Below, piece after piece: positions 28,657 to 54,831 of a stretch of DNA of 64,000 nucleotides. The stretch is from Actinomycetes bacterium. GTDB taxonomy: Bacteria > Actinomycetota > CALGFH01. Where the stretch lies: the NCBI GenBank assembly GCA_036000965.1, contig DASYUT010000288.1, forward strand, positions 1-64,000, in the 5' to 3' direction. Under the pieces are notes generated by a model. That model did no database searches and was not told where the DNA came from. It saw nothing but the letters and a program-made list of their open reading frames with translations. The translations under genes and the position numbers were made by a program. Position 1 is the first letter of the stretch, and every line of letters begins with the position of its first letter.

Positions 28657-29845
28657 CGCTCGTCCTGTTCTCCGACCGATGTGCGAGCAACGCCAGCGTC
28701 CGCTTGGCCACCGGGCGTCCGTACGCGAACGCGAGCCAGTGGGCGTACCCCATCGACATCGACGGCGCGAACGCCTGGAAGCGGACGAGATCCTCGGTGG
28801 TCTTCGTGAAGGTCAGCTTGTACATCTCGTCTCCTCCGAGGAGCGCCAAGCGCCTGATCTGCGAGGAGAATGCATGCCTGAACAGCGTCTCCAGCAGCAC
28901 CATGCCAGGGGAGAAGTCCCGGAACCCGGGATTGTATCCTCCCTTCAACATGTAGAGGACGTTGCCCTCCTCGATCAGATATTGGGCCGCAAGGGGGCGA
29001 CCGTCGAGCCGCAGGAAGGCGATCCGGAGCCAGCCCCGTGCCGCGGCCCATTTGGCGACCTCGCGGTAGAAGGATTGCGTCTCAGGCCGGGACAGGATCG
29101 CGCTGCCCTTGGCCCCCTTCCACCCGGATGCCTCGACCCGGAAGAACTCTTCGACCGATTCCTCCATGCGCTCGCCGTCTTTTTCGATATCGAGCTCGAG
29201 CCGGCCCTTATGCTCGAGCCGTTGACGGCAGCGACGGAGCTGCCTGCGACGGTTCCTGCTCAGACGTTGCTGCGCGTAGTCGTCCCACGTGCCTTCGACG
29301 ACAACGTAGGGCGACCGCTCCAGGGTCCATTCGAGGATCCGATAGCCCACCTGGGCGGCTGCGGCACGACATGGCGCGAGCTCATCCGTGTCGACGAAGC
29401 CCAGGGAGACCTGCACCGGCCGGTCCCTGAAGAGCGCAGCGGCCAGCCCGAAGGCGGCGGCCTCGTCCTCGGCGAGGATACCGAACTGGTTCGAATGCCA
29501 GTTGCTCGTCGACCAGACGCGTCTGCGCCTCCGGTGGAGGGGGATCACCGCTGCGAGACGGGCTGCCCGCCGAAGGGTGATGATCTCGAGGCGGCCGGTG
29601 CCAAAGGCACGCCACCACGCGTCGATCCAGCCTGGCCGCAGGAAGGGGGTGGCACCTAGCCGGTCGGCGAGCGCGTCCCACTCCACGGCCACGGGTGCAA
29701 TGGATCCGTGCACCTCGAGCCGGAACGGCTCGAGGTCCTGACCAGGAGGCCGAGCGGTCGTTCCGCTCGGCTGTGTGCCGGTTGCTGTCGAGTGGTTGCG
29801 ACCCGGCAATTGCGACGGCAGCTTCCTCCCCCGCCGTTCAGACAC
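28649..29845 (-). CDS. FemAB/BioF2-like GNAT-fold transferase, second copy
   Basis: 398 residues if the GTG at 29845 is used; that GTG overlaps the cupin stop. Typical segments are GATPFLRPGWIDAWWRAFGT near the N-terminus, STSNWHSNQFGILAEDEAAA, QQRLSRNRRRQLRRCRQRLE and LEEFFRVEASGWKG-like helices (here VEEFFRVEASGWKGAKGSAI). It ends with RLDGRPLAAQYLIEEGNVLY and LALLGGDEMYKLTF. The EASGWKG and YK motifs mark Acetyltransf_6/FemAB-like enzymes of polysaccharide loci. It is a paralogue of the 26651-27718 product at low identity. Start choice is moderately uncertain because the ribosome site is weak. Confidence 0.82.
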   Translation of the reverse strand: MSERRGRKLPSQLPGRNHSTATGTQPSGTTARPPGQDLEPFRLEVHGSIAPVAVEWDALADRLGATPFLRPGWIDAWWRAFGTGRLEIITLRRAARLAAVIPLHRRRRRVWSTSNWHSNQFGILAEDEAAAFGLAAALFRDRPVQVSLGFVDTDELAPCRAAAAQVGYRILEWTLERSPYVVVEGTWDDYAQQRLSRNRRRQLRRCRQRLEHKGRLELDIEKDGERMEESVEEFFRVEASGWKGAKGSAILSRPETQSFYREVAKWAAARGWLRIAFLRLDGRPLAAQYLIEEGNVLYMLKGGYNPGFRDFSPGMVLLETLFRHAFSSQIRRLALLGGDEMYKLTFTKTTEDLVRFQAFAPSMSMGYAHWLAFAYGRPVAKRTLALLAHRSENRTSDG

Positions 29846-30707
29846 GTTGGTTGAGCTCTGCCTTCCTGCCGGCGACACGCCCTCGGAGCCGGTTGTAGGA
29901 GGCCACCACGGCCGATTTCGCCAGGTCAGCCGTTCGGGAGCGGCCGGACGGTCGGGTCTGCTGGATGTGGAGCCGGCGGCGCATGTTCGAATTGAACACG
30001 TGCACGTTCTCGGCGCGCTCGCTGGCCCTGGTGCGGAAGGTGATCGAGAGTGACACTGAGACCGCCGGGCCGTTCTTGACGAAGTGCGGCGCGAACGAGG
30101 GGACATAGGTCCCGTCGCCGGGATCCATGTCGAAGCCCTGCACCTCGACCGGCATGCCTTCCAGGTTGCGGTGGCCGCCGTCGTAGTACCGATCCAGCTC
30201 CCGCTGCCGCTCGGCATCGTCCGGGAAGCGTCCTACGTTCATCGATTTGGTGCCGCGGATCTGCAGCAGGAAGTTGTGTTCAGGATCGAAATGGACCGGC
30301 GTTGTCGCATTCGGGGCGGACAGAAACAGGAACGCCTGGCGGTTTCGCATGCCGCCCTCGCGCCTGCCGACAAAGTGCTCGGCCTCGTCGAGAATCGCGT
30401 CGAGCAGCGCCTTGTACTCATGGGCCTGTTCGATGTTCCACAGCACCATCCAGCAACCGTTGGTCTCGATTCCGCGCACGGTGTCGGATGGAGGGCCCTC
30501 CACCTCGGGCGCCCCGCCCGGCATGACGAGCGGCAGGTCTGCCTGGTGTCGCTCGATGGCCGCGTAGGGCAGCCGGTCGGCCAGAGCGGCAATGGCATCG
30601 GGCGCAAGGAGCGGGTGGTTCACAAGGGAGTGGCGCACCGCGAAGGGACGGCGCGTGAACGCTTCGGCGAATCTGTGGGGGTCGAGCTGCAACAAGGTAT
30701 CGGTCAC
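29838..30707 (-). CDS. Cupin/JmjC-like (Cupin_8) protein, probable Fe(II)-dependent oxygenase
   Basis: 289 residues from GTG at 30707, chosen because AAAGGAG lies eight bases upstream; a TTG six codons earlier is the alternative. The metal site is seen in ATTPVHFDPEHNFLLQIRG (H-x-D at about residue 138) with a second histidine in YVPSFAPHFVKNG. The fold segment QIRGTKSMNVGRFPDD and the final SITFRTRASERAENVHVFN fit JmjC/asparaginyl-hydroxylase-like cupins seen beside FemAB genes in exopolysaccharide clusters. It may hydroxylate a sugar, lipid or peptide substituent. It is the first gene of the decoration operon, downstream of the diverged noncoding repeat at 30835-31040. Confidence 0.8.
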   Translation of the reverse strand: MTDTLLQLDPHRFAEAFTRRPFAVRHSLVNHPLLAPDAIAALADRLPYAAIERHQADLPLVMPGGAPEVEGPPSDTVRGIETNGCWMVLWNIEQAHEYKALLDAILDEAEHFVGRREGGMRNRQAFLFLSAPNATTPVHFDPEHNFLLQIRGTKSMNVGRFPDDAERQRELDRYYDGGHRNLEGMPVEVQGFDMDPGDGTYVPSFAPHFVKNGPAVSVSLSITFRTRASERAENVHVFNSNMRRRLHIQQTRPSGRSRTADLAKSAVVASYNRLRGRVAGRKAELNQRV

Positions 30708-31616
30708 GTTCCTCGCTCCTTTCAACTCCAGATCGGACCTCGCCGTCAGATGTTTTGCCAGATGACAGGACGCTCCAGACGACCCTCACCGAGGACATCT
30801 CGACAGCGAAACGGATTGCCCTACGAGCCCGGTGGCCTGCACGCAGCAACGGACCAAGGCCCACGTCGCAACGTCCAGCGTGAACACCCCCCCTGTCACC
30901 TCCGCTCGTCCGTGCCGGGCACCGATGGCGTTGCCAATGCCACGGCCTCGAACGCTCCGCCCCAGCAAGAAGGCCTGTTCGCGGCGGTGTCGGGCATCAG
31001 GACCAGCATGATACCCCTCGACCCGGCAGAACCGGGCGGTCTCCGTAGAAACGGTATGGGACAGGCCGGTGGGCTGCAAGTACCGATAACTACACAGACA
31101 GGCAACACAACAGACACCCATGAGCTGAGATGTCAAGCTGCGGCTTGCTCGGTGTGCTTGGCCCGGCGATCGCTTCGTCGTAGAGGGTGCGGCTGGCAAA
31201 GACAGCCGTGGCTGCTTGGTGCGGCCGGTGTCGGGACGCGCCGGGCAGCAGCGCGCCCGTGCACCGCTCCCAGGCCCGGCGTTTGGGTGCCGCTGGCCCG
31301 GCAGCTGGGTCGCGGTCGGGCCGATGGTGTCGGCCTTGGCCCGGACCAGGTAGTCGCGTGGGGTGACGTGGTCACCGGCGAGCGCGGTGGTGACCTTGGT
31401 CGGCGAACCGCTCGGGCCAGCCGTGGCGAGCGGGTGGGTGAAGGCGACCAGCTCCTGGCACGAGGTGGCGCCCAGCGCATCGCGGGTCGGTCAGGTTTGC
31501 AGCAACCGCAGCATGGTGGGCGCCGAGGCCGTCCCCGGCGACCTGCAGCGCGGCCGGGAACGTGGACACAGGTCCTGGCGGAGCCGGTTTAGTCTATTGC
31601 TTGATTTAATAGCTAG
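30708..31616. other. 909-bp stretch without a confident gene
   Basis: It holds the left copy of a diverged intergenic repeat (30835-31040). From about 31140 to 31580 there is GC-rich sequence in which all minus-strand frames are short or shifted (for example KVTTALAGDHVTPRDYLVRA). This may be decayed coding DNA of unknown family. An AT-rich patch, tctattgcttgatttaatag, at 31593-31612 lies just past the stop of the next gene. A 137-codon minus-strand frame (30786-31199) is not supported, because the repeat copy at 44 kb does not preserve its frame. Confidence 0.55.
30835..31040 (-). repeat. Diverged intergenic repeat, copy A (upstream of the cupin operon)
   Basis: It aligns with 44188-44400. 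Shared blocks are gcctgcacgcagc (13/13), acgtcgc..gtccagcgtga with ccccccctgtc, aagaaggYctgttcgcggcg and its extension (24/25, at 30967-30991), and cggcagaaccg. One- and two-base gaps between blocks argue against a conserved protein. Read on the minus strand, it ends about 128 bp before the cupin start, where a promoter or 5' leader would lie. Confidence 0.75.
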
Positions 31617-33380
31617 CTAGAACGGAGCTACCACGCGGAACTGGCCCAGTGGAACGCTCGCCAGCGACGGCCAGTCGGCATCGGTGCCCCAATACCCTCC
31701 GGCAAATGGGTTGCCGGTAGCCGGAGTGTTGTCCTTGACGTCCTCCTGATAGATGGTCAAGGCATGCACGGGACTCGTGTCCATCAGGATGATCCCGTAC
31801 TTCTGTGCGGTCTTGCAGTAAGCCCGCACACCCCGTACAGAGATGGCCTCACAGTTGAAGGAAGGATTCAGTTGGAGCCGGGAGCCCTGCGGTATCGCGC
31901 TGGGACTGGTATCAGGACCGTCACTGCTGGTGGCTGGGCTCACCCACCGCCCTTTGGCGCCGTACATCGATGACCCCTGCAGCGCGTGACCATAGGTTCC
32001 GTCGGTGTCCAGGTGCGTGGCGTCGTAGGCACGGAGCAACCCGGCAAGAGAGCTGGTGCTGGCGCCGGTCGGTGCTTTTTCGCCATTGATGCCCGGGGCC
32101 CCATCACTGGCAGTCGTCAAAGACTCGATGACCCCGTAACCCTGGTACCCCCACTTGGTGCAGTCGAGTCCGGCGACGTCGGCCCCCCAGATGTCGTAGA
32201 CGAGTTTCGTGCTCGCGTCGATCACGATGTACTTGTGGTCGGAGCTCGCCCCCGGTCCCTCGGCCTCATGCGAGCCCGGCGGGATCGGTACCTGCTTGCC
32301 GCTGATAGGACCACAATGTGAACCCCAGGTGTAGCGCGGCGTGCTGGCATCTGCGTAGAACACCGGAGCTCCAAACCGTCCCCAGGCTCCAGAGGTTACG
32401 TTGTAGTGGCCTCCGCTGGACAAGCGCTGGATCATGCCGGCCGAGTTGGGGGCAAGTGTGGCATTGGCGGGGATGGCGCGGTTCCAGGCCGAGGATGCCG
32501 GGAACGGGCGCTCAGGGGTTCCGTACGTAAGCGTGCTCGTCGGTGCCGGCGCACTCGTGGTGCTCGTCGGTGCCGGCGCACTCGTGGTGCTCATCGGTGC
32601 CGGCGCACTCGTCGTACTCGTCGTTGTCGGTGTACTCGTCGTTCTCGGCGTGCTCGTCGGTGACGATGGGAGTGTCGTGGTGGCGGCCGTCGTGGTCGTG
32701 GCCCGACTCGAGGTCGTGGCCGCGACCGTCTCCACGACCAGCTGGGGGGCGGTCAGACCGGTCTCCCGACTCGCATACAGGCCGGCGGACCTGTCGTCGG
32801 CGGTCAGCACGAAGTCGATCACGCCGTCGCCGTGGACCAGCGCGGTGACGTCGACGCTCGTCCAACTGTCGCGCGCAACAGGACCCGAGGTGGCCACAAC
32901 CGGTCCGGGCGTCGGTGCAGTGGCATAGGTGATCTTGTCCTCGGTCCAGTCCTTGCCCGCGACCGTGCGAACGGCGTAGCCGGTCCGGCTCGCGGTCTCC
33001 GCGTAGAGCCGCAGCCTGGCTGCGGTGACCGCGCCGGCGAGCTGTGCGACGGCGAAGCGCAGGTAGCTGCGCTCAGACCTCGGGAAGGCGTCGGTACGCA
33101 ACGCAGGGGTGCTGCTGAAGTTGCGGTCTGGCCTTGCCTGGCTCACGTAGGCGTCGGCGGCCGGGGTGAAGCGGAACGTCGCACGGGTCGCCGTCGCGTG
33201 CGGAAGCGACGCGAGCACACCGGCCAGGACAGCCGAGCACGCCAAGACCACGGCGACCCGTAGGTGCGTGCGCTGGCTCGGGTGCGCTCGGCGATGCCGC
33301 CCGCGGCGCCGGGCGTGCAGCCCTGTGCGCACCGTCGAGGCGGGATGGCTGGCGTGGCGGCCACGATACTGTCCGGCCAT
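31617..33380 (-). CDS. Secreted CBM96/DNRLRE-domain protein with Ser/Thr-rich repeat linker
   Basis: 587 residues. A basic N-terminus (GRHRRAHPSQRTHLR) precedes a signal-like helix, VAVVLACSAVLAGVLASLPH, around residues 43-62. Residues about 65-215 resemble the DNRLRE/CBM96 carbohydrate-binding fold: FTPAADAYVSQARPDRNFSS, RSYLRFAVAQLAGAVTAARL and SWTSVDVTALVHGDGVIDFV. A Thr/Ser/Pro linker with 9-residue repeats (TSTTSAPAP) spans about 220-285. The C-terminal 300 residues (TYGTPERPFPASSAWNRAIP, YIVIDASTKLVYDIWGADVA, ILMDTSPVHALTIYQEDV) are a domain I recall only as uncharacterised in secreted actinobacterial proteins. It probably binds polysaccharide at the cell surface. Confidence 0.75.
   Translation of the reverse strand: MAGQYRGRHASHPASTVRTGLHARRRGRHRRAHPSQRTHLRVAVVLACSAVLAGVLASLPHATATRATFRFTPAADAYVSQARPDRNFSSTPALRTDAFPRSERSYLRFAVAQLAGAVTAARLRLYAETASRTGYAVRTVAGKDWTEDKITYATAPTPGPVVATSGPVARDSWTSVDVTALVHGDGVIDFVLTADDRSAGLYASRETGLTAPQLVVETVAATTSSRATTTTAATTTLPSSPTSTPRTTSTPTTTSTTSAPAPMSTTSAPAPTSTTSAPAPTSTLTYGTPERPFPASSAWNRAIPANATLAPNSAGMIQRLSSGGHYNVTSGAWGRFGAPVFYADASTPRYTWGSHCGPISGKQVPIPPGSHEAEGPGASSDHKYIVIDASTKLVYDIWGADVAGLDCTKWGYQGYGVIESLTTASDGAPGINGEKAPTGASTSSLAGLLRAYDATHLDTDGTYGHALQGSSMYGAKGRWVSPATSSDGPDTSPSAIPQGSRLQLNPSFNCEAISVRGVRAYCKTAQKYGIILMDTSPVHALTIYQEDVKDNTPATGNPFAGGYWGTDADWPSLASVPLGQFRVVAPF
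32533..32640 (+). repeat. 27-bp in-frame tandem repeat, about four units
   Basis: Units at 32533-32559, 32560-32586 and 32587-32613 are near identical. A diverged fourth follows at 32614-32640. Each encodes a nine-residue Ser/Thr/Pro/Ala block of the linker in the secreted CBM96-like protein. Confidence 0.9.
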
Positions 33381-33548
33381 GGCGTATCCTCACTGGCCCC
33401 GGCGGCACGAGGACATGGGGACAGCCGCCGGAAGCAGGCTTGGGGTCGGTCTTGGGGGAGAGGCCGACACATATGGCAGGCTTTTATCACCACTTGCCAC
33501 TTCGAGCAACCTGGCCGCGAGACCTCCGCGAGGACAGTCGCCGTCCGC

Positions 33549-34868
33549 TCAGCGCCCCCGACCCTCAAACCCACCCGGGCCGCGGCCTTCCTCCAGCTCG
33601 CTCAGGGGGGTGCTCGACGACCGCCTCCGTGTGGTCGAGGAGCCAGCCAGCAGGCGGTCGTAGGCGGCCAGCAGCACGGGCGCGGAGTACTCCCAGGCCA
33701 GCTCGGTGCGGACCCGGTGCTGGCCGGCCGCGCCCATCTCCTGCCGGCGGGCCGGGTCGTCGAGCAGCGCGTCGATCTGCTTGGCCAGGTCGCGCTCGGA
33801 GTTGGCCTCGGCGTAGACGGCCGCCGACCGGGCGGAGACGCGGGTCTCGGTCAGGTCGTAGGCCACGACCGGCAGGCCGAAGAACATGTACTCCATGATC
33901 TTGTTCATGGTCGACTTGTCCGACCAGTCGTTCCTGGGGTCGGGATCGACTCCGAGGTCGGCGGTTGACAGCACGCGGCACAGCTCCTCGTCGCTGACCC
34001 GGCCGGTGAACGTGCACAGGTCGGCGACGCCGGTCTCCTCCGCGTAGGCCTTGATCGCGGGCTGGTGCGGGCCGCCCCCGACCAGCACACAGTGGACGTC
34101 GTCGCGGCCGAGCTCGTCGCGCAGCAGCTTCACGGCGCGCACGAGGTGGTCGACGCCGTCCTGCTTGCAGATCTCCCCGAGGTAGGCGAGCAGGTGGCGC
34201 TTGCCGTTGCGCCAGGCCGGGTCGGGTGGGAACACGGTGAGCCGGCCGAGGTCGGGGCCGGAGCGCACGACGTACACGTCGCCGGGCGCCACCCCTCCAC
34301 GCTCCTCGGCGATCCGCTTGTGGCTCTCGTTGGTGGTGATGACGAGGTCGGCCGTGCGGAAGGTCATCCGCTCGAGGAACCTGAGCCCGGCGAGGGCGGG
34401 GCCGCCCGAGCCCCCGAACTTCGCCTGGTACATCTCGGGCGAGAGGTCGTGGTGGTCGAACAGGAACCGCTTGCCGAGGCGCTTCCAGAGCCAGCCGAGC
34501 GGCCAGTAGGTCTCCGGCGGGTTGCAGACGTGGAGGACGTCGAAGCCGCGGCCGCGCAGCGCGACCCGTACCGTCTTCATGGCCGTGCGCAGGAAGCACC
34601 AGGCGAACTCGGTGACGAAGCCGAGCGCGCCCTGGGCGTCGACGGGCAGCCGGTAGCGGTAGACGTGGACGTCCTCGAGCACCTCGAACGACTCGTCGAA
34701 GCCCTTGGCCTTGGGGCAGATCACGCTGACCTGCCAGCCCGCCCGGGCCAGGGTGGTGGCCTCCAGCCAGACCCGCCGGTCGAAGGGGACGGGCAGGTTC
34801 TGCACCACGATGCAGGCGCGACGCGGCCGGCCCGCCTTCGGCCTACCAGCAGATGCCATCGTAGCCAT
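33549..34868 (-). CDS. GT4-family glycosyltransferase
   Basis: 439 residues from ATG at 34868 (an ATG three codons later is also possible). N-terminal features are CIVVQNLPVPFDRRVWLEAT, VSVICPKAKGFDESFEVLED and VLHVCNPPETYWPLGW. The middle has FLFDHHDLSPEMYQAKFGG and LVITTNESHKRIAEERGGV. The C-terminal donor domain has YLGEICKQDGVDHLVRAV and STADLGVDPDPRNDWSDKST followed by KIMEYMFFGLPVVAYDLTET. The VQNLPVPFDRRVWLE and NDWSDKSTMNKIMEYM patterns mark the EPS GT4 subfamily common in actinobacteria. Its 5' end overlaps the dehydrogenase by 26 bp, and it is the last gene of the six-gene wcaJ operon. Confidence 0.9.
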   Translation of the reverse strand: MATMASAGRPKAGRPRRACIVVQNLPVPFDRRVWLEATTLARAGWQVSVICPKAKGFDESFEVLEDVHVYRYRLPVDAQGALGFVTEFAWCFLRTAMKTVRVALRGRGFDVLHVCNPPETYWPLGWLWKRLGKRFLFDHHDLSPEMYQAKFGGSGGPALAGLRFLERMTFRTADLVITTNESHKRIAEERGGVAPGDVYVVRSGPDLGRLTVFPPDPAWRNGKRHLLAYLGEICKQDGVDHLVRAVKLLRDELGRDDVHCVLVGGGPHQPAIKAYAEETGVADLCTFTGRVSDEELCRVLSTADLGVDPDPRNDWSDKSTMNKIMEYMFFGLPVVAYDLTETRVSARSAAVYAEANSERDLAKQIDALLDDPARRQEMGAAGQHRVRTELAWEYSAPVLLAAYDRLLAGSSTTRRRSSSTPLSELEEGRGPGGFEGRGR

Positions 34869-36156
34869 CCCTGCCGTCCGGCTCGTCGACGATCCGGACC
34901 AGGTCGACGACCCGCTGGCCGGCCCGGACGCGCTCCAGGGCCGCGCGGAACGCCGTGTCGGCGGTGCCGACCACCACCGTCTGGGCGTGGTCGAGGAGCT
35001 CGTCGACCGTGGCCACCATCAGGTTCGAGATGTGGGGGATCTGGTTGAGGATGTAGTCGCGGTTGGCGCCCACCAGCTTGGCGAGGTTGACGTTGCCGTC
35101 GTAGACCCGGAGGTCGTAGCCCTTGCCGAGCAGACGCTCGACCAGGTCGACCATGGGGCTCTCGCGGAGGTCGTCGGTGCCGGCCTTGAAGGAGAGGCCG
35201 AGCACGCCGATCCTGCGGTGGTCGGCGTCGACGACGAGCTGGAACGCCCGCTCGAGCTGCTGCCGGTTGCTGGGCAGGACCGCGTTCAGCAGCGGCAGGT
35301 CGAGGTCGAGGCTGCGGCCCTCGTAGGCGAGCGCGCGGACGTCCTTGGGCAGGCAGGAGCCGCCAAAGGCGAACCCGGGCTTCAGGTACGCCGACGACAG
35401 GTTCAGCTTCTGGTCGGCGCAGAACACGTCCATGACGCGCCGCCCGTCGAGCCCCTGGGCCTTGGCCAGGCTGCCGATCTCGTTGGCGAACGCGACCTTG
35501 AGCGCGTGCCAGGCGTTGTCGGCGTACTTCACCATCTCCGCGAGCCGCACCTCGGTCTGGATCGTGGGCGCCTCGGGCCGCTCGGCGACGGGGGTGAGCA
35601 GGCGCCGGCTGCGCTCGTCGGAGGCGCCGATCACCACCTTCGGGGGATGGTGGAAGTCGTGCACGGCGCTGCCCTCGCGGAGGAACTCCGGGTTCGTGCA
35701 GACCCCGAAGTCGCGGCCGGCCCGCTTGCCCGAGGCGCGCTCCAGGATGGGCACGAGCACCTCCTGGGTCGTGCCCGGCAGCACGGTCGAGCGCAGGACG
35801 ACGACGAAGAAGCCGTCCCGCTCGCGCAGGGCGGCGCCGATGTCCTGGCCGACCCGGCGGAGGTGGGTGAGGTCGAGGCTGCCGTTGGCCTGGCTCGGCG
35901 TGCCGACGCAGACGAAGCCGAGCTCGGTGTCGCGCACCGCCTCGGGGCAGGCGACGGTCGCGCGCAGGCGACCGGCTGCCACACCGGCCCCGACCAGCTC
36001 GGTGAGGCCCTCCTCGATGACCGGGGACTGCCCCCGGTTGAGCAGGCCCACCTTGACCGGCTGGGGATCCACGCCGGTGACGTCGTGGCCGTCGCCGGCC
36101 AGGCAGGCGGCCGACACCGCGCCGACGTACCCCAGCCCGAACACGCTGATCCTCAT
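34843..36156 (-). CDS. UDP-glucose/GDP-mannose 6-dehydrogenase
   Basis: 437 residues. The NAD-binding start RISVFGLGYVGAVSAACLAG is at residues 2-21. The conserved FGVCTNPEFLREGSAVHDFH follows, and the catalytic cysteine sits in FAFGGSCLPKDVRAL at about 265. The C-terminal domain begins near VLGLSFKAGTDDLRESPMVD. These mark the UDPGDH/GDP-mannose dehydrogenase family, which oxidises a nucleotide sugar twice to the uronic acid, using two NAD+. The product would supply an acidic sugar for the exopolysaccharide, fitting the heparinase-like lyase encoded nine bases upstream. Whether the substrate is UDP-glucose or GDP-mannose is not certain; the FLREGSAVHDF segment leans to the AlgD type. Confidence 0.92.
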   Translation of the reverse strand: MRISVFGLGYVGAVSAACLAGDGHDVTGVDPQPVKVGLLNRGQSPVIEEGLTELVGAGVAAGRLRATVACPEAVRDTELGFVCVGTPSQANGSLDLTHLRRVGQDIGAALRERDGFFVVVLRSTVLPGTTQEVLVPILERASGKRAGRDFGVCTNPEFLREGSAVHDFHHPPKVVIGASDERSRRLLTPVAERPEAPTIQTEVRLAEMVKYADNAWHALKVAFANEIGSLAKAQGLDGRRVMDVFCADQKLNLSSAYLKPGFAFGGSCLPKDVRALAYEGRSLDLDLPLLNAVLPSNRQQLERAFQLVVDADHRRIGVLGLSFKAGTDDLRESPMVDLVERLLGKGYDLRVYDGNVNLAKLVGANRDYILNQIPHISNLMVATVDELLDHAQTVVVGTADTAFRAALERVRAGQRVVDLVRIVDEPDGRDGYDGICW

Positions 36157-36165
36157 GGCGAGCCC

Positions 36166-38226
36166 CTACGGACGGCCGGGTTGCTGGAAGGACGCACGTC
36201 GCACCCCTGATGGCTCGTGTGATGGTTGGTGAGGCCGGGCAGGGTCGAGCTGCACGACGGTGAGCAGGGGCCGGCCGTGGCCGCTGCGCCCGGCGCCGAG
36301 CAGCGTCACGGTCGGCACGCGGACGTCGAACGCCGGCGAGTACCAGCCGGCGGGCGGGTCGGTCCGCCCTTCGAGACGCTCCCAGGCCAGTGCTTCCGGG
36401 AGTGCGACGGTGGCGGTCCCTTCCTCGTCCCCGGCAGGCCAGGCCAGCTCGGCGAGGCTGCCGCGCAGCGTGCAGGCGACGCCGGGGCCGAGGTGGAGTG
36501 CGAGGCGGCAGTCGTGCTCGCCCAGGGTGTCGAGCCGGTCTTCGATCACCAGGCGGCGCTCCTCGCGGAGCAGACGGATCGTGCGACGGTGCACGGCGGC
36601 CGGGCGGAGCCGGTCGTAGCCGTGGTGGGCGGCCCGCACCTCGGCGACCGGGCCGCCGTCGAGCCCCTGGGCGTGCTCCAGCTCGCTGCGCGCGTGGCGG
36701 GTCCACAGGAACGGGCCGCCCGAGACCGACTGGTCGGCCTGGCCGACCTCGAGGGTGTTGTGGCCGGCGGTGGAGCGGAAGTACGCGCGCCACCCTGGCT
36801 CGCCGTGGTAGCAGTAGGTCCCGGGGTCGGCCAGGACCTCCGCCCCGCCGACCCGCAGCTCCACCGCGAGCGCGTCGGCGTGGGCGTGGGCCGCGATGCC
36901 GAGGTACCCGTGCGGGCCGTGGTCGACCCGGCACCAGATCTCCTCGAGCCCGTGCCCGTCACGCAGCAGCGTCGTGCCCGCGTCGGGGAACAGCGACGGC
37001 CGCCGCCCCGGGCGGGGGCCGCCCACGGGCAGGGGTGCCCGCGCCAGGCCGGTCCACAGGGGCGTGCGCGCGTCCTCCCGCGGCACGGGCGGCCACCAGT
37101 CCAGCGGGCCGAACAGGACCGCCCCGGTCGCCAGCAGGGACGCCCAGCGCTGGAAGCCGGGCGCGTCGAGCAGCAGGCCCCATCCCTCGTCGTCGTCGCC
37201 CTGGCGGGGCGGGCGCAGGCGCACGTCCACCACCGCGGCGAGCGCGTCGACCATGCGCCGCAGGGCGTCCCAGACCTCGCCGCCGAGCGGGTGCCCGGCC
37301 GTCTCGCCTTCGAGCGCGGCGGCCAGGCCCAGCTCGAGCACGAACCCGTGGTAGGCGGTTGCCAGCTCCCGGTTGAGGCCGTCGGGGAAGGTCTGGCGGG
37401 GCAGCTCCCGGCGCAGTGTGGCCGCCGCGTGCTCGCGCCAGCCGGGCGACTCCGGGAACCAGGGGAAGGCGCAGGCCGCCGCGAACTGCCCGGCCGCCTC
37501 GGCGAGCACGTGGTTGTTGGCCGACGAGCCGCGGCTCGGCAGCGTGGCCAGGTACTGCTGGTGGTGGTGGAGCTGGCGCAGGAAGGCCGGGTCGCCCTCG
37601 AACAGCGGGGCGGCACCGTCCCACCCGTCGAGCAGCCGCCTGGCCCAGGTCCAGGAGACGAGCCGCACCCCGACCTCGATCGCGCTCGTCCAGTGGATGC
37701 CGGAGAGGAACGGGTTGGCCGCCCACCAGGAGCGGAGCTGCCTGGCGGCCGCCCGGGCGTAGCGTTCGTCGCCCGTCAGCCTGAAGGCGGCAGCGAGCAG
37801 CGTGACGTGCTGGTGGCGGGACGGCTCCCACACGTACTTGACGTTGCCGGCCGCTGCCTCGTCGCGGTGGTCGACGTCGAAGCAGTAGGCGTCGCTCGGC
37901 GCCCGCCGGCCGGTGCGCGGGTCGGCGAACCAGTCCGCCTCGGCAGCGTCCCAGACCCGGTCGAAGACCGGCCAGCGGCCGGCGAGCAGCTGGCCGGCCG
38001 CCTCGACCACGCGGACTCGCGCGCCCGCGGGCACACCCTCGGCCGCCGCAGGGACCAGCGGGGTGGCGAACGGCGGGACCGCCCCAGGCACGGGCAGCGG
38101 GTCGGCCTGGCCCTGGCGCACCTGGCGCCGGCGCCAGCGCCGCTTCACCAGCTCGTCGCGTGCGCGCCCGACGATCTCCCCGGGCGACATGCGTGCCAGC
38201 CGCCGCGCGTACCACACGGGGTTCAT
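36166..38226 (-). CDS. Heparinase II/III-like polysaccharide lyase
   Basis: 686 residues from ATG at 38226, overlapping the previous stop (ATGA). The N-terminal alpha/alpha toroid includes WYARRLARMSPGEIVGRARD, WEPSRHQHVTLLAAAFRLTG, WTSAIEVGVRLVSWTWARRL and SRGSSANNHVLAEAAGQFAA. NNH is the conserved active-site asparagine/histidine region. The C-terminal Hepar_II_III beta domain has GYLGIAAHAHADALAVELRV followed by ADPGTYCYHGEPGWRAYFRS and GHNTLEVGQADQS. No signal peptide is seen, which is usual for this subgroup in EPS operons. It probably cleaves uronic-acid-containing polymer during assembly or turnover. Confidence 0.88.
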   Translation of the reverse strand: MNPVWYARRLARMSPGEIVGRARDELVKRRWRRRQVRQGQADPLPVPGAVPPFATPLVPAAAEGVPAGARVRVVEAAGQLLAGRWPVFDRVWDAAEADWFADPRTGRRAPSDAYCFDVDHRDEAAAGNVKYVWEPSRHQHVTLLAAAFRLTGDERYARAAARQLRSWWAANPFLSGIHWTSAIEVGVRLVSWTWARRLLDGWDGAAPLFEGDPAFLRQLHHHQQYLATLPSRGSSANNHVLAEAAGQFAAACAFPWFPESPGWREHAAATLRRELPRQTFPDGLNRELATAYHGFVLELGLAAALEGETAGHPLGGEVWDALRRMVDALAAVVDVRLRPPRQGDDDEGWGLLLDAPGFQRWASLLATGAVLFGPLDWWPPVPREDARTPLWTGLARAPLPVGGPRPGRRPSLFPDAGTTLLRDGHGLEEIWCRVDHGPHGYLGIAAHAHADALAVELRVGGAEVLADPGTYCYHGEPGWRAYFRSTAGHNTLEVGQADQSVSGGPFLWTRHARSELEHAQGLDGGPVAEVRAAHHGYDRLRPAAVHRRTIRLLREERRLVIEDRLDTLGEHDCRLALHLGPGVACTLRGSLAELAWPAGDEEGTATVALPEALAWERLEGRTDPPAGWYSPAFDVRVPTVTLLGAGRSGHGRPLLTVVQLDPARPHQPSHEPSGVRRASFQQPGRP

Positions 38227-40457
38227 CCGGCCGGGACGCCTTCCCGCTCCGTCGGTGCGGCCCCGGTGCCGCCCGGGGCCGCCGGCGCCACCGGCTCGGC
38301 GCGGCCACTGGCCACGCTGCGGCTGGCCGCGAAGGTGGTCCGGGTGGTGGCCACGAGCGACGCCAGCTCGATCGGCATGGGCAGGCCCTCGGCCACGGCG
38401 CGGACGAAGGCGTCCATCTCCTGCCGCTGGCCCTTGTCGATCCCCGACCGCGACCGCTTCGCCTGGCGCTTGCCGCCCCGCCAGTGCTCGGACCGCTGGA
38501 AGTTGTGGAGCTTGGCCACCTGGCCCTGGCCGAAGACCTGCACGACCTCCTTGGGATAGCGGCCGTCGCCCCGGGTGAGGTAGGAGATCGTCGCCACCGA
38601 CCCGTCGGCGTACCTGATCGTGCTCACGGTGTCGTCGGGGTCGCCCGGGGTGCTGGCCGCGAACACCTCGACCGGCTCGCTGCCGATCCACCACGACGCG
38701 GTGTCGACGAAGTGGCAGCCCTCGCCGACCAGGCGGGCGCCCTCCTCGGGGCGGGCGTACCAGCTCCCGGCGGCGAGCGGCCCGGCGTTCACGTCGTAGC
38801 GGAGGTGGACCGGTCCGGTACGCGCCCCCCAGGACTGCTTGAGCTGGGTGAGCAGCGGCGCGAAGCGGCGGTTGAACCCGACCGTCAGCCGGTCGTTGCC
38901 GGTCTCGGCGACCACGGCCAGGATCTCGTCGAGCTGCTCGGGCGTGACCGCCAGGGGCTTCTCGACGAACACCGCCTTGCCGGCCCGCAGCGCCTCGCAG
39001 ACCATCCGGGCGTGGGCGTGGTGGCGGGTGGCGATGAGCACTGCGGTGACGTCGGCGGCGGCCAGCAGGCCCTGGTAGTCGGTGGAGACCCGCTCGAAGC
39101 CGAAGCGGCGCCTGGCGTTGGCCGCCGACAGGGCCGTGGCCGTGGCCACCTCGACCAGCCGGACGTCGTCGCGCCCCCGCAGGTGCGGCAGCAGCATCGA
39201 GGTGGCGTAGCTGCCCGCCCCGACCACGCCGAGCCGCACCTCCGGCTGGGCGGGTGCCTGGTCGACCCGGGCGCGGGGCTGCGGCAACGCGGCCCTCCCC
39301 TCCAGCCGGTGCGCCAGGGGTGCGTCGGCCGGGTACTGGAACAGGATGCCGACGCCGCGCTGCTCGCCGGCCAGGATGCGCTCGTAGGCGCCGACCGCGT
39401 CGGTGAACGGCAGCACCGCCGACACCAGCGGCCCGAGGTCGACCCGGCCGCCGTCGAGCAGGTCGAGGAAGCAGGCCAGGTTGCGCCGCTCGGTCCACCT
39501 CACGTAGCCGATCGGGTAGTCGACGCCCTGCTCCTCGTAGACCGGGTCGTAGCGGCCGGGCCCGTAGGAGCGCGAGAAGCGGACGTCCAGCTCCTTCTCG
39601 TAGTAGTCCTTCCAGGGCAGGTCGAGCCGGCACCTGCCGATGTCCACCACCCGGGCGCGGTCCCTGGCCAGCTCGGCGGCCAGCTCGACGGGCTGGTTGG
39701 TGTCGCCCCCGGCGGTGAGGAAGACGTGGTCGGCGCCGGCCCCGTCGGTCAGCTCGGCCAGCTTCGCCACCACCGCCTGGAGCGAGGCGCCCTCGGGGGC
39801 GCCGCAGGCGGTGACGCCCATCCGCTCGGCCAGCCGGCAGCGCTCCACCGACGGGTCGAGCCCGAGCACGCCGACGCCGGCGGCCCGGAGGATCTGCACC
39901 AGCAGCTGGCCGACCAGCCCGAGGCCGACAACCAGCGCGGTCTCGCCCAGCCCGGCCTCGGACTGCCGGTAGCCCTGCATGGCGATGGCGCCGACGGTGG
40001 TGAACGCGGCGTGCTCGCCCTTGACCCCGTCGGGCACGGCCACGCAGAGGTTGCGCGGGACCCAGTTGTACTCGGCGTGCAGCGCGTAGAGGTTGCCGGC
40101 GCAGGCGACCAGCTGGCCGACCGAGAGCCCCTCGACCCCGGCGCCGACCTCGACGACCTCGCCGCAGAGCGAGTAGCCGAGCGGCGTCCAGGCGTCGAGC
40201 TGGGTGGTGACCTTCCGGTAGGTGGCGGCCAGCCCCTGCTGGGAGACCGCCTGCACGACCTTCCTGACCTGGTCGGGCCTGGCCCGGGCCTTGCCGACCA
40301 GCGACAGCTTGCTCTCGCTGATCTTCATCATCTCGGTGCCCACGGAGATGAGGGAGTACTGCGAGCGGACCAGCACGCCTCCCGGCCGGCAGGTGGGCGC
40401 GGGCACGTCCACCAGCGACAGCTCGCCCGACTTGTAGTTCTGCACGATCTGCTTCAT
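38223..40457 (-). CDS. Bi-domain oxidoreductase: zinc-type MDR dehydrogenase fused to Gfo/Idh/MocA
   Basis: 744 residues from ATG at 40457. Residues about 1-355 are a medium-chain dehydrogenase/reductase domain (GVLVRSQYSLISVGTEMMKI, PLGYSLCGEVVEVGAGVEGL, ALVVGLGLVGQLLVQILRAA). Residues about 385-720 are a Gfo/Idh/MocA domain (VRLGVVGAGSYATSMLLPHL, VFVEKPLAVTPEQLDEILAV, TVGFNRRFAPLLTQLKQSW). EKPLA carries the catalytic lysine. Such bi-domain oxidoreductases occur in exopolysaccharide and aminosugar loci and may channel a keto-sugar between two redox steps. It is encoded directly upstream of the heparinase-like gene with a 4-bp overlap. Confidence 0.88.
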   Translation of the reverse strand: MKQIVQNYKSGELSLVDVPAPTCRPGGVLVRSQYSLISVGTEMMKISESKLSLVGKARARPDQVRKVVQAVSQQGLAATYRKVTTQLDAWTPLGYSLCGEVVEVGAGVEGLSVGQLVACAGNLYALHAEYNWVPRNLCVAVPDGVKGEHAAFTTVGAIAMQGYRQSEAGLGETALVVGLGLVGQLLVQILRAAGVGVLGLDPSVERCRLAERMGVTACGAPEGASLQAVVAKLAELTDGAGADHVFLTAGGDTNQPVELAAELARDRARVVDIGRCRLDLPWKDYYEKELDVRFSRSYGPGRYDPVYEEQGVDYPIGYVRWTERRNLACFLDLLDGGRVDLGPLVSAVLPFTDAVGAYERILAGEQRGVGILFQYPADAPLAHRLEGRAALPQPRARVDQAPAQPEVRLGVVGAGSYATSMLLPHLRGRDDVRLVEVATATALSAANARRRFGFERVSTDYQGLLAAADVTAVLIATRHHAHARMVCEALRAGKAVFVEKPLAVTPEQLDEILAVVAETGNDRLTVGFNRRFAPLLTQLKQSWGARTGPVHLRYDVNAGPLAAGSWYARPEEGARLVGEGCHFVDTASWWIGSEPVEVFAASTPGDPDDTVSTIRYADGSVATISYLTRGDGRYPKEVVQVFGQGQVAKLHNFQRSEHWRGGKRQAKRSRSGIDKGQRQEMDAFVRAVAEGLPMPIELASLVATTRTTFAASRSVASGRAEPVAPAAPGGTGAAPTEREGVPAG

Positions 40458-40500
40458 GCGCCACCACTGCTCACGGTCGGTCGCCCTGGGACGGGACGGG

Positions 40501-42402
40501 TCACTGGGACTGCTGGCGGTGCCAGAGCTCGAGGGTCAGGAGCTGCCAGATCTCCTTGGACCGGTCCGCGACGCCCGAGCGGTCGTCGTCGATCAGGGCG
40601 CGCACGGCGGTCTTGTCGAGCATCCCGGAGGTGACCAGGTTCCCGCCGGCCACCAGGTCCTCGACCATGTCCTGCAGGTCGCGGCGGATCCAGGCCCGCA
40701 GCGGCGCGCTGAACAGGCCCTTGGGACGGTAGACGATCTCGCGGGGCAGCCAGGGCTCGGCGGCCTGCTTGAGGATGGCCTTGCGCTCGGTGCGGACGAT
40801 CTTGGCCGCTCCCGGGATCGCGAACGCCGCGGCGACCACGTCCTTGTCGACGTAGGGCACTCGCACCTCGGTCGAGACCGCCATGCTGACCCGGTCGGTG
40901 TAGGCCAGGTTCAGGCCGGGCAGGAACATCCGGGTGTCGGTGTAGCACATGCGGTTGACCTGGTCGTGGTCGGGACCTTCGGCATAGACGGCCGCGTGCT
41001 CGGCCACGAGCCGGTCCACGTGGGGCCACAGCTCGGGGTCGAGCAGCTCGTGGAACTCGGCCACGTCGTAATGGGTGTAGCTGCGCCGGAACGCGGCCTC
41101 CTCGGGGAGGCCGGCGAACGCCACGAACCGCTTGGCGAAGCGCACGGAGCGGTAGCCGCGCCGCCGGCTGGCCACCGGGAGCCGGTGCACGACCGGTTCG
41201 ATCAGCCCGTTGCGCAGGATCCCGGGCAGGCGGCGGTACCTGGAGGCGAGCAGGCCCGCGTAGTGCTTGCGGTAGCCGCCGAACAGCTCGTCGGCGCCCA
41301 TGCCGGAGAGCAGCACCTTGACCCCGGCCTCCCGGGCGGCCTGGCAGATCAGGAAGGCGTTGATCGCGGCGGCGTCGCCGATCGGCTCGTCGAGGGTGTG
41401 CACCATCCGGGGGAGCAGGTCGGCGACGTCGGGCGCCAGCTCGACCTCGTGGAGCCGGATGCCGTGCCTGCCGGCCAGCTTGCGGGCATAGGCGAGGTCG
41501 TCGGGCATCGCCTCGAAGCGCTGGTCCTCGGCCCGGAACGAGATCGTGTAGCTGTCGATGTCGCGGTTGTGGCGCGCCGCGAGCACAGTGAGCAGGCTCG
41601 AGTCGAGCCCGCCCGACAGGAACGTCGAGATCGGCACGTCGGCGACCAGGTGGGCGGCGACCGACTCCTCGAGCACGGTCCGCAGCGCGTGGACGTCGAC
41701 CTCGCGCTCGGGCGGCGCGGTCAGCGCCGTGCGCGGGTCCCAGTAGCGCCGCAGGCGGTGCGACCCGTCCGGGGCCACCTCGAGCCAGGAGCCGGGAGGG
41801 AGCTTGGCAACGCCCCGGTAGACGCAGTGCTCCTCCGGTACCCAGTAGTACATCAGCGAGGCGACGAGCGCGCACGGGTCGACCTCGGGGCGCTCGCCCA
41901 GGACCGGCCGCAGGGCCTTCAGCTCCGAGCCGAACGCGACCCCTGAGTCCAGCAGCGCGTAGAACAGGGGCTTGATGCCGAAGTGGTCGCGGGCGAGGAC
42001 GAGCGCGCCGGTCCGCTCGTCGTAGAGCGCGAACGCGAACATGCCACGGACGCGGTCGAGGCAGCCCGGGCCCCAGTGCCGCCACGCCTCGAGCAGCACC
42101 TCGGTGTCCGAGCTGGTCCGGAAACGGGCACCGGCCGCCGCCAGCTCGCGCCGAAGCGCCTGGTAGTTGTAGATCTCGCCGTTGAACACCAGGACGAGCC
42201 CGTCCTTGGCGAACGGCTGGTTGGCCGCCTCGGACAGGTCGATGATGGACAGGCGCCGGTGACCGAGCCAGACGTGACGGCCGTCCTCGTCGTGGGTCCA
42301 GGAGCCCTCGGCGTCCGGCCCCCGGTGCGCGATCGCCCGTGACATCGCGGCCAGCTGCCCGGCCGTGGCGGGCACGTTGTAGACCCCCGCTATCCCGCAC
42401 AT
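40501..42402 (-). CDS. asnB: Asparagine synthase-type glutamine amidotransferase
   Basis: 633 residues with the start fixed at ATG 42402, because Cys2 (MCGIAGVYN) must be N-terminal after Met removal. The class II glutaminase domain has AIAHRGPDAEGSW, LVFNGEIYNYQALRRELAAA and FRTSSDTEVLLEAWRHWGPG. The synthetase domain carries the PP-loop DVPISTFLSGGLDSSLLTVL at about 250, then LSGMGADELFGGYRKHYAGL. In polysaccharide loci such AsnB homologues more often amidate a glycan uronic acid or peptide than make asparagine. Its placement between the initiating transferase and the bi-domain dehydrogenase fits that, as does the nearby uronate-forming dehydrogenase. Confidence 0.92.
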   Translation of the reverse strand: MCGIAGVYNVPATAGQLAAMSRAIAHRGPDAEGSWTHDEDGRHVWLGHRRLSIIDLSEAANQPFAKDGLVLVFNGEIYNYQALRRELAAAGARFRTSSDTEVLLEAWRHWGPGCLDRVRGMFAFALYDERTGALVLARDHFGIKPLFYALLDSGVAFGSELKALRPVLGERPEVDPCALVASLMYYWVPEEHCVYRGVAKLPPGSWLEVAPDGSHRLRRYWDPRTALTAPPEREVDVHALRTVLEESVAAHLVADVPISTFLSGGLDSSLLTVLAARHNRDIDSYTISFRAEDQRFEAMPDDLAYARKLAGRHGIRLHEVELAPDVADLLPRMVHTLDEPIGDAAAINAFLICQAAREAGVKVLLSGMGADELFGGYRKHYAGLLASRYRRLPGILRNGLIEPVVHRLPVASRRRGYRSVRFAKRFVAFAGLPEEAAFRRSYTHYDVAEFHELLDPELWPHVDRLVAEHAAVYAEGPDHDQVNRMCYTDTRMFLPGLNLAYTDRVSMAVSTEVRVPYVDKDVVAAAFAIPGAAKIVRTERKAILKQAAEPWLPREIVYRPKGLFSAPLRAWIRRDLQDMVEDLVAGGNLVTSGMLDKTAVRALIDDDRSGVADRSKEIWQLLTLELWHRQQSQ

Positions 42403-42421
42403 GGCAGCGCTCCGAACCTGG

Positions 42422-43972
42422 TCAAAAGGCACCACTGCGGCCCAGGACCGCGCTGAAGGTCTTGACCAGGATGTAGAGGTCCAGCGTGAGGGACCAGTTC
42501 TCGATGTAGAACAGGTCCAGCCGCAGGGCCTCCTCCGGGGTCACCCGGCTGCGGCCCTTGATCTGCCACCAGCCGGTCACCCCGGCCGGCACCTCCTGGC
42601 GGGGGCTGAGCAGCTCGAGGTTGGCGGCCACCTGGTCGGCCGGGAGCGGCCGGGGCCCGACGATGCTCATCTCGCCCTTGAGGACGTTCCAGAACTGGGG
42701 TAGCTCGTCGAGGCTGGCGCGGCGGATGAACGCCCCGACCCTGGTGAGCCGCGGGTCGGCGTCGAGCTTGAAGAACGGCTTGGTGGTGTCGGCGTCGACG
42801 TCCACGCCGGTCCGCATGGAGCGGAACTTGTGCATCAGGAAGACGCGGCCCCCCTTGGTCACCCGTTCCTGGTGGAAGAGGACCGGGCCGCGCGAGGTGA
42901 GGCGGATCGCGGCGGCGATCAGCCCCCACAGGGGGAAGCTCACCACCAGCGCGGCCGACGCAGCGAGGATGTCGAAAGCGCGCTTCATCGCGGCCTGCCG
43001 GCCGCTGAGCAGGACGGGCCGCATCGCGAGCGCCACGGCCGGGCCGACCGTCTGCAGCGACAGCCGCGAGGTGAGAGTCTGGGGCAGGTTCGACGAGACC
43101 CGCACCTCGACGCCCTCCAGGCGCGCGGCCTGGGCGACCCGGGACATGTCGTCGACGGTGACGGCGGTCGAGGCGACGAACAGGCAGTCCGCGGCGTGCT
43201 CGCGGATCAGCAGGCGGAGGTCGCCGATCTCGCCGAGCACGGGCAGGGAGTTGGCCGAGAGCGTCGGGGCGGAGGCCAGCACGTAGCCGAGCGGCGTGTA
43301 GCCGGACTCCGGGTCACGCAGGATCTCCACCAGGCGTCCCGCCTCCGGGGTGCCCCCGACGACCAGCGTGCGGAAGCGGAGGCGGCCGGCCCGCCGCTGG
43401 TGCCACAGGTACGCCCGCCAGCCACGCCGCACCACGAGCTCGAGGGCGAGCGCGAGCACCCAGGCCAGCGCCACCCAGGAGCGGGAGAACGACGACTTCG
43501 ACCAGTAGCTCGCCATCACCAGCAGGACGATCCCGAGGCTGGTGGCGCCGATGGTGCGGCGGAGCTCCTCGTGGCCGGAGAGGTGCTGGGGCCGGTACAG
43601 GTCGAAGGCGTGGAAGACCCCGACCCAGAGGAGCGGGGCGAGCACCACGACGGCGGTCTCCCCAGCCGGCATGGGCCGCACCGGCCACGGGTAGCGGAGG
43701 TAGTACGACACCACCAGCGCGGCCACCACGCAGAGCGCGTCGGAGACGGCCAGGCCGAGGCTGATCCGCCGGTAACGGCGGAGCGTCCCGCTGTCGCGGG
43801 CGAGGGACAGTGCCGCCGCTCCCCTCGGCTCCCCCGGGGCGGTCTCGCCGGCCCAGACGAGCGTGAGGTCCTCGCTGGCGACGGGCGCACCCGACCGGGG
43901 CGGCTCGTGGGACCCGTTGGCGGCGGTGGTCTGGGCGTGGGTCGCGGCGGTCTGGAGGTGCCTACGAGCCAC
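42422..43972 (-). CDS. Polyprenyl-phosphate glycosyl-1-phosphate transferase (WbaP/WcaJ type)
   Basis: 516 residues from GTG at 43972. Four to five hydrophobic helices occupy about residues 70-185 (ISLGLAVSDALCVVAALVVS and AVVVLAPLLWVGVFHAFDLY). A Rossmann-like CoA-binding segment follows (RTLVVGGTPEAGRLVEILRD). The C-terminal catalytic domain starts at MKRAFDILAASAALVVSFPL and contains LFHQERVTKGGRVFLMHKFR, RRASLDELPQFWNVLKGEMS and IVGPRPLPADQVAANLELLS. This enzyme moves a sugar-1-phosphate onto undecaprenyl phosphate and so initiates the repeat unit. It is the first gene of a six-gene minus-strand operon and is preceded by the diverged noncoding repeat. Confidence 0.92.
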   Translation of the reverse strand: MARRHLQTAATHAQTTAANGSHEPPRSGAPVASEDLTLVWAGETAPGEPRGAAALSLARDSGTLRRYRRISLGLAVSDALCVVAALVVSYYLRYPWPVRPMPAGETAVVVLAPLLWVGVFHAFDLYRPQHLSGHEELRRTIGATSLGIVLLVMASYWSKSSFSRSWVALAWVLALALELVVRRGWRAYLWHQRRAGRLRFRTLVVGGTPEAGRLVEILRDPESGYTPLGYVLASAPTLSANSLPVLGEIGDLRLLIREHAADCLFVASTAVTVDDMSRVAQAARLEGVEVRVSSNLPQTLTSRLSLQTVGPAVALAMRPVLLSGRQAAMKRAFDILAASAALVVSFPLWGLIAAAIRLTSRGPVLFHQERVTKGGRVFLMHKFRSMRTGVDVDADTTKPFFKLDADPRLTRVGAFIRRASLDELPQFWNVLKGEMSIVGPRPLPADQVAANLELLSPRQEVPAGVTGWWQIKGRSRVTPEEALRLDLFYIENWSLTLDLYILVKTFSAVLGRSGAF

Positions 43973-44550
43973 GGCTGGCTGTCCGCTTCATGATGATCAT
44001 CCCCCTCGATGGACCGGTGCTCCTGCCAACAGCGCCAGGCACAAGGCGGCCTGACAGCGCCAGGCGCCAGGCGGGGCGCGCGGACTCGTCAACGGGTTGG
44101 ACGATCCACCTCTGGTCTCGCCCAGCCCGAAGCGGCCAGTGGCCGGTCGGCGGGCGACGGCGAAGCGGTCGTGTGCCGGCTCGGGCTGCCTGCACGCAGC
44201 CGCCAAGCCATGACCGTACGTCGCGATGTCCAGCGTGAAGCCCCCCCTGTCGCACCTCCGCCCGTCGTCACCATGGCGTGCGAGCACGCCACAGCTTCGA
44301 GGCTGAACCCTCCTCCTCCCCCAAGAAGGTCTGTTCGCGGCGGTGTCAAGGCGTCAAGGACCGGCGTGACACCCCACCGGACCGGCAGAACCGACCGGTG
44401 CCCGTCAAAACCTATGTGACGTGCCGTCTGGTCGCAAGTCCTAATTTTTCTACGCATCCAGGTGAACAGCCAGCAACGTCGTGGAAACGAGGGTGTTCGC
44501 AACGCAGGCGTAAAGGTGAGAAATACCAACTTCCGGGCAGAATCCGGCGG
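43973..44550. other. 578-bp leader of the wcaJ operon, no convincing gene
   Basis: The stretch lies between the start of the initiating transferase and the stop of the HxlR regulator. It holds copy B of the diverged repeat (44188-44400). Upstream of that is a lower-GC patch with aagtcctaatttttctacgc around 44436-44456, a plausible promoter zone on the minus strand. Minus-strand open frames here do not match those in copy A. Confidence 0.6.
44188..44400 (-). repeat. Diverged intergenic repeat, copy B (upstream of the wcaJ operon)
   Basis: Partner of 30835-31040. The best core, 44323-44347 (aagaaggtctgttcgcggcg and onward), matches copy A at 24 of 25 bases, and several blocks align in the same order with small gaps. 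On the minus strand its downstream end lies about 216 bp before the wcaJ-type start, mirroring the placement of copy A before the cupin operon. Confidence 0.75.
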
Positions 44551-44976
44551 CTAGACGTAGTGCAGGTCATCCGCCTCGTGGTCGGCGACCATGCGGGCGC
44601 AGGTGGGGCAGTACCAGCGTGCCTCCATCGCCGTGCCGCACTCCGCGTGGCGGAGCGCCTCGCCGTCCCCGGCTCGCTGGGCGCCCCATTGGGCGAGCAG
44701 GCGCAGGGCGCCGGCCAGCTCGAGCCCGGACGCGCTGAGTTCGTAGGCGAACCGGGGCGGCCGCCTGGAATAGAGCCGGCTCACCACGACCGCCTCGCGC
44801 TCGAGATGCTTCAGCCGCTGCGACAGCACGTTCGGGGCGATGCCTGGGAGCTCCTCCTGCAGGTCGTTGAAGCGCCGGGTCCCACCCAGCAGCGCCTGCA
44901 CGATCAGCAGCGTCCAGCGGTCGCCCACCCGGGCGACCGCCTCGTCCAGGGGCGAAGGCTCTTGGGTCCGCGGCAT
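44551..44976 (-). CDS. HxlR-family transcriptional regulator
   Basis: 141 residues from ATG at 44976. The winged helix is DRWTLLIVQALLGGTRRFND, IAPNVLSQRLKHLEREAVVV and YSRRPPRFAYELSASGLELA, a classic HxlR pattern. The C-terminus adds a CxxC-type tail, HAECGTAMEARWYCPTCARM, which could bind zinc. It is divergent from the trypsin/PDZ protease gene across 96 bp that hold an inverted repeat (45026-45047), so autoregulation and control of the protease are likely. The effector is unknown. Confidence 0.88.
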   Translation of the reverse strand: MPRTQEPSPLDEAVARVGDRWTLLIVQALLGGTRRFNDLQEELPGIAPNVLSQRLKHLEREAVVVSRLYSRRPPRFAYELSASGLELAGALRLLAQWGAQRAGDGEALRHAECGTAMEARWYCPTCARMVADHEADDLHYV

Positions 44977-45025
44977 GGGGCCATCGTACGGGCCGTGGCC
45001 TACCTCTTGCACTCCTCGCTTGCAG

Positions 45026-54619: not shown

Positions 54620-54710
54620 CCGATCACCTCGCTGGTGGTGACGTACTGAGCAATGTAGGCACGGTTGCTGAGAACTTGCTGAGCTGGGAGACCCGGCCGG
54701 CGGTGCCGCC

Positions 54711-54831
54711 CGACCCCACCGGCCGGCCGTCCCGACCCCACCGGCCGGCCGGACCGACCCGCCAGCCGGCCGGACCGACCCCGCCAGCCGGCCGGACCGA
54801 CCCCGCCAGCCGGCCGGACCCCGCCGGCCGG
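54711..54831 (+). repeat. 22-bp tandem repeats, five or more units
   Basis: Units of the form cgaccccgccagccggccgga (first two with cac for cgc) run from 54711 to about 54831, directly abutting the stop codon of the FAD oxidoreductase gene. They lie between it and the ABC operon. Confidence 0.88.

Follow-up and report, generated by a model that had tools for sequence, protein, structure and literature searches.

A probable shared control module upstream of two units of an actinobacterial polysaccharide cluster

Why are two units of one actinobacterial polysaccharide cluster preceded by the same diverged stretch of noncoding DNA? The locus lies in a 64-kb window (the whole stretch of DNA analyzed), and the ten WhiB-type genes of the genome assign it to the Actinomycetota. 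A sequence-only reading of the window had offered three identities for the repeat, namely a shared promoter module, a structured 5′ leader RNA, or a regulator-binding region. Our analysis inclines us, by a modest degree, toward a lineage-specific promoter-leader module that co-controls two units of a single polysaccharide cluster and whose transcribed core would act as a cis-regulatory RNA. As such, the repeat is probably a control element, so far undescribed, that the two units share for the production of sugar polymers.

Two noncoding copies in one polysaccharide cluster

In a whole-genome blast (6.47 Mb), copy A retrieves copy B on the same strand with 73% identity over ~250 bp (E 2.5e-26), and copy B is the sole above-chance match, the next match having an E value of 0.08. 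The local alignment of the two copies scores 162, whereas 1000 dinucleotide shuffles reach at most 33 and ~1000 random window pairs at most 52. The segment coordinates and the core of 24 identities in 25 bases (30967-30991 and 44323-44347) given in the sequence-only reading are correct on re-examination, as are the distances of 128 bp to the cupin GTG (30707) and 216 bp to the wcaJ GTG (43972). The two segments are indeed homologous, but their similarity reaches slightly further than claimed, to 31081 and 44439, and its upstream limit lies 2 bp upstream of the -35 box described below. The G+C content of the copies is 67-68%, and that of the window 73%.

The repeat is noncoding, as originally proposed. 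Its gaps, mostly of one or two bases with one larger exception, break every reading frame, the overlapping frames have no Pfam match, and the small leader frames are not conserved; a protein-coding origin was thus rejected. A leader-peptide attenuator was likewise discarded, given that frames beginning at the aligned WTG are interrupted by indels and agree in neither sequence nor length.

All relevant genes at both copies lie on the minus strand. Downstream of copy B lie genes for a wcaJ-type initiating sugar transferase, an amidotransferase of the asnB type, a two-domain oxidoreductase, a protein resembling heparinase II/III, UDP-glucose dehydrogenase (ugd), a GT4 glycosyltransferase, and a DNRLRE/CBM96 protein. 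Operon A begins with genes for a cupin, a FemAB/GNAT-like protein, and a polysaccharide deacetylase, and continues with more genes. Described beforehand as two separate operons, both are preceded by a copy of the repeat, but they form adjacent transcription units of one ~20 kb minus-strand polysaccharide cluster.

Within this cluster, wcaJ, the asnB-type gene, the oxidoreductase gene (a zinc-dehydrogenase fused to a Gfo-Idh-MocA domain), and the heparinase-like gene are consecutive in 36166-43972 (-), and the amidotransferase is related to an XrtA/PEP-CTERM model. At 43972-44005 (-), a 12-codon frame (MIIMKRTASRGS) following GAGGGGG overlaps the assumed GTG of wcaJ, and the true wcaJ start is uncertain. 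A small gene for an HxlR-type winged-helix regulator (44551-44980, -) ends just upstream of copy B and might regulate the wcaJ promoter locally. Tandem repeats of 27 bp occupy 32506-32667 within the DNRLRE/CBM96 gene, and a G+C-rich tandem array of 21-22-bp units, with six overlapping copies in the repeat table, lies at 54671-54842.

Table 1. Positions in the window of the two modules, their candidate elements, and the first genes downstream.
Feature	Position	Strand	Basis
Module A: promoter and predicted 5′ leader of the cupin-FemAB-deacetylase operon	30708..31081 (shared with B, 30835-31081)	-	blast to B; shuffles
Module B: promoter and initial portion of the predicted 5′ leader of the wcaJ operon	44188..44439 (leader runs on to 43973)	-	A-B alignment; homolog before wcaJ ortholog in another genus
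A -35 box, TTGCAG	31074..31079	-	17-bp spacer to -10
A -10 box, TACCGT; predicted start ~31044	31051..31056	-	pattern scan
B -35 box, TTGCGA	44432..44437	-	17-bp spacer
B -10 box, TAGGTT; predicted start ~44402	44409..44414	-	pattern scan
A hairpin candidate Ha, CCCGG-UUCUG-CCGGG	31022..31036	-	GTTCTGCC unchanged in A, B, and C; pair counts
B hairpin candidate Ha, CACCGGUCGG-UUCUG-CCGGUCCGGUG	44375..44400	-	pair counts
A hairpin candidate Hb, GGUAUCA-N9-UGAUGCC	30993..31015	-	compensatory A-U versus G-C; pattern at the three modules only
B hairpin candidate Hb, GGUGUCA-N10-UGACGCC	44350..44373	-	pair counts; pattern search
A most conserved block, GACACCGCCGCGAACAGGCCTTCTTG (contains the 25-base core)	30966..30991	-	25/26 identical to B; ACAGRCCTTCWTG retained in C
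B most conserved block, GACACCGCCGCGAACAGACCTTCTTG	44322..44347	-	alignment to A and C
Variable hairpin, A TGGCATTGGCAACGCCA; B counterpart TGGCGTGCTCGCACGCCA	A 30926..30942; B 44274-44291	-	read from sequence
Distal block common to A and B only	A 30863..30907; B 44218-44263	-	alignment; unrecognizable in C
Cupin (JmjC_2-like), first gene of operon A; GTG start preceded by AAAGGAG	29838..30707	-	Pfam PF08007
wcaJ-type initiating sugar transferase, first gene of operon B	42422..43972	-	TIGR03025

A third copy in another genus and the promoter boxes

Local alignment reveals a diverged third copy, C (L037, ~978-1106), between an acetate kinase gene and the ortholog of wcaJ (70% identical at the protein level) in a different genus of the same family. 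The intergenic alignment of B with C scores 71 (shuffle maximum 32) and that of A with C 51 (shuffle maximum 36). A sequence model built from the two window copies has one match at E ≤ 1 in that genome, namely copy C (E 1.3e-6); since this model contained A and B only, its result and the shuffle comparison together indicate that copy C is no artefact of selection. The genes that follow wcaJ at copy C differ (WecG/TagA-type and GtrA), so the module travels with wcaJ and not with the remainder of the operon.

The searched set holds only three genomes of the class, and in G001, the second genome of the other genus, the closest wcaJ is truncated by a contig end, such that this genome cannot be judged for the module. 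Across 397 genomes of the phylum, model R1 finds two weak matches only, one inside a transaldolase gene and one spanning the end of dnaJ and the start of the next gene, and 395 further genomes of one other class yield no homolog of the module. The core pattern has eight matches in GTDB r220, all in unrelated taxa and the best-scoring one within a coding gene, which we regard as chance. The three strongest candidates outside the family lie in or across coding genes. Among the few genomes of the class available for comparison, the module seems private to the family. Other polysaccharide paralogs in its own genome (on C175 and C106) have no module copy; a second polysaccharide-type locus (G000:C175, 35298-47230; L040, L045) encodes a wcaJ-like protein (35%) and a cupin paralog (42%) and lacks the module.

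At the homologous position, copies A, B, and C all carry TTGnnn-N17-TAnnnT, with the spacing exactly 17 bp in each case; the boxes of copy C read TTGAAT and TACCGT. This arrangement agrees with a SigA/sigma-70-type promoter (-35 TTGnnn, 16-18 bp spacer, -10 TAnnnT), and TANNNT is the preferred SigA -10 element in Mycobacterium smegmatis (PMC6448022). A strict E. coli sigma-70 consensus scan does not flag the promoter of the modules. Sites of the form TTGnnn-TAnnnT with 16-18 spacing number only five in both strands of the window, two of them being those of A and B, and shuffled versions of each region hold one such site in 6-7% of cases. At the level of sequence, we consider the promoter part of the module well supported.

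With the start placed ~7 bp after the -10 box, the predicted 5′ leaders extend to the start codons over ~337 (A), ~430 (B), and ~365 nt (C). Because the boxes precede the conserved block, the block would be transcribed as a 5′ leader, and the shared core would occupy approximately +8 to +95 of the predicted transcript.

Leader RNA, DNA operator, or remnant

Common to the three copies are the promoter boxes and ~95 nt past the predicted start, a segment interrupted by 1-3-nt indels and containing two hairpin candidates. The first, Ha, includes the invariant stretch GUUCUGCC and the loop UUCUG; the second, Hb, is formed in copy C by GGUGUCA and UGACACC around a loop of 8. Pair counts find 97% of the Ha and Hb cells paired, versus 35-52% in slid controls, with three pairs changed on both sides. 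Compared with column shuffles of the three sequences, Hb reaches p ~0.06 for the stem alone and ~0.02 for the stem plus the double change. The RNAalifold energy of the whole core is no better than that of column shuffles (sense p 0.38, antisense p 0.07; three sequences), and single-sequence folding is ordinary, with z values of 0.42 (A), -1.22 (B), and -1.11 (C). The single-sequence folding of B skips Hb, and GGUGUCA pairs instead with a second UGACACC just downstream. Of the three identities suggested at the outset, then, the promoter and a conserved block downstream of it are borne out, while the recommended covariation check yields one stem, weakly. RNA structure in the leader is plausible from these sequences, and the indications favoring an RNA-level action of the leader over a DNA operator are suggestive only.

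A DNA operator is the strongest rival, because the core contains three TGACACC-like heptamers and a gene for an HxlR-type regulator adjoins copy B. Here, the promoter would be conserved and the downstream 95 bp would hold repressor or activator sites, for example dimer sites of the TGACACC heptamer, inverted upstream and with two direct copies downstream. At the DNA level, a single heptamer is arrayed in GGTGTCA...TGACGCC..TGACACC, RNA folding of the whole core is not significant, and the HxlR-type gene ends at 44551. The spacer between the inverted arms, however, measures 8, 9, or 10 bp across copies, a variation that a rigid dimer would tolerate poorly, and ~95 bp of near-continuous conservation make a long stretch for an operator. 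Copy A has a compensatory arm change, and in the other genus the gene preceding the module encodes acetate kinase, not an HxlR-type regulator. Moreover, the Hb pattern GGURUCA-N8..10-UGAYRCC has three sites in the ~16.6 Mb of three class genomes, namely the three modules themselves, and this confinement counts against a general operator with other targets. We assign the operator an appreciable chance of being correct, though we think it unlikely.

It is also conceivable, although we doubt it and put it forward only tentatively, that the module represents a new class of cis-regulatory RNA restricted to one deep actinobacterial family. Polysaccharide initiation would then be controlled by a fold able to switch: GGURUCA, the 5′ arm, could pair with one or the other of two partners in tandem (UGAYRCC or YGACACC/G), and the conserved block GRACAGRCC is complementary to the hairpin loops (GUUC, GGUY).

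Were the repeat instead a plain duplicated promoter, an old duplication of promoter and flank, its downstream similarity would reflect descent and its function would be limited to promoter strength. The distal block shared by A and B is unrecognizable in C, as in an aging duplication. From the -35 box to the end of the core, however, identity (gaps excluded) is ~83% between A and B and, across genera, still ~82% between B and C and ~75% between A and C, whereas the surrounding intergenic DNA cannot be aligned. We consequently give little credence to this explanation. Least credible is an origin as a mobile-element remnant, or as a separate small RNA gene lying before both operons by chance. 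That one genome has two noncoding segments of 250 bp so alike might suggest as much, but the IS remnant envisaged in the sequence-only reading as a refutation, like a MITE, plasmid, or phage remnant, is not supported, with only two copies in the genome and no match in plasmid and phage collections. The overlapping frames contain no transposase family, the module has no terminator after it, and a copy holds the same position before the ortholog in another genus.

Proposed action of the module and known polysaccharide leaders

In the promoter-leader reading that we favor, each copy would comprise a SigA-like, housekeeping-type promoter followed directly by a conserved 5′ leader. Such a module would drive operons A and B such that both respond together, and its placement before both units would allow the initiating transferase and the tailoring enzymes to be made together. 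The first ~95 nt of the transcript would most likely be a cis-regulatory RNA composed of two 5′ hairpins and a conserved, mostly unpaired block; folding of this RNA, or its binding of a ligand or protein, would decide the passage of RNA polymerase through the long untranslated leader. Terminator scans of the leaders find no intrinsic terminator between module and gene, and G outnumbers C in the leaders overall and in most of their 60-nt stretches, so an attenuation step is not visible. We infer the transcription start, the action as RNA, the signal, and attenuation as the output step from the sequences.

To our knowledge, cis-acting leaders of polysaccharide operons are known from Bacillales, Gammaproteobacteria, Bacteroides, and cyanobacteria. 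A promoter-bearing module in an actinobacterium, placed before two cluster units and kept across genera, would add a lineage to such leaders, and we view it as a new lineage-specific example of this known kind, its presumed function being read from sequence. Provided that the module works in this manner, the leader may be the point at which capsule or exopolysaccharide output is set, with no specialized NusG paralog involved. The module also offers a compact reporter target that is easily tested.

An Rfam cmscan of the window gives no matches and relaxed scans of copies B and C give only unrelated sub-threshold ones, in keeping with the earlier failure to recognize a riboswitch class. The epsC motif, or EAR (RF01735), of Bacillales is an RNA in the 5′ UTR of exopolysaccharide operons with reported antitermination activity (PMC2864571). 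The modules resemble it in their predicted 5′ UTR position before polysaccharide genes, but belong to another phylum, do not match its Rfam model, and show no terminators to be read through. JUMPstart/ops with RfaH, and other specialized NusG paralogs (LoaP, UpxY), similarly involve a short element early in the leader of polysaccharide operons, one that acts on elongation (PMC2864571, PMC7819879). The modules would share this early placement but have no Rfam match, and each of the three genomes, which are fragmented assemblies, has one NusG-domain gene, presumably NusG itself, rendering RfaH/LoaP/UpxY-like processive antitermination unlikely. The wcaG motif of cyanobacteria and cyanophages is likewise a 5′ UTR RNA before exopolysaccharide genes (PMC2864571), a position that the modules would share, although they lack an Rfam match to it and occur in different taxa. 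Finally, the modules resemble an actinobacterial SigA-type promoter in the TAnnnT -10 box of all three copies and the TTGnnn 17 bp upstream (PMC6448022), and differ from ordinary promoters in adding a conserved downstream block that would be transcribed.
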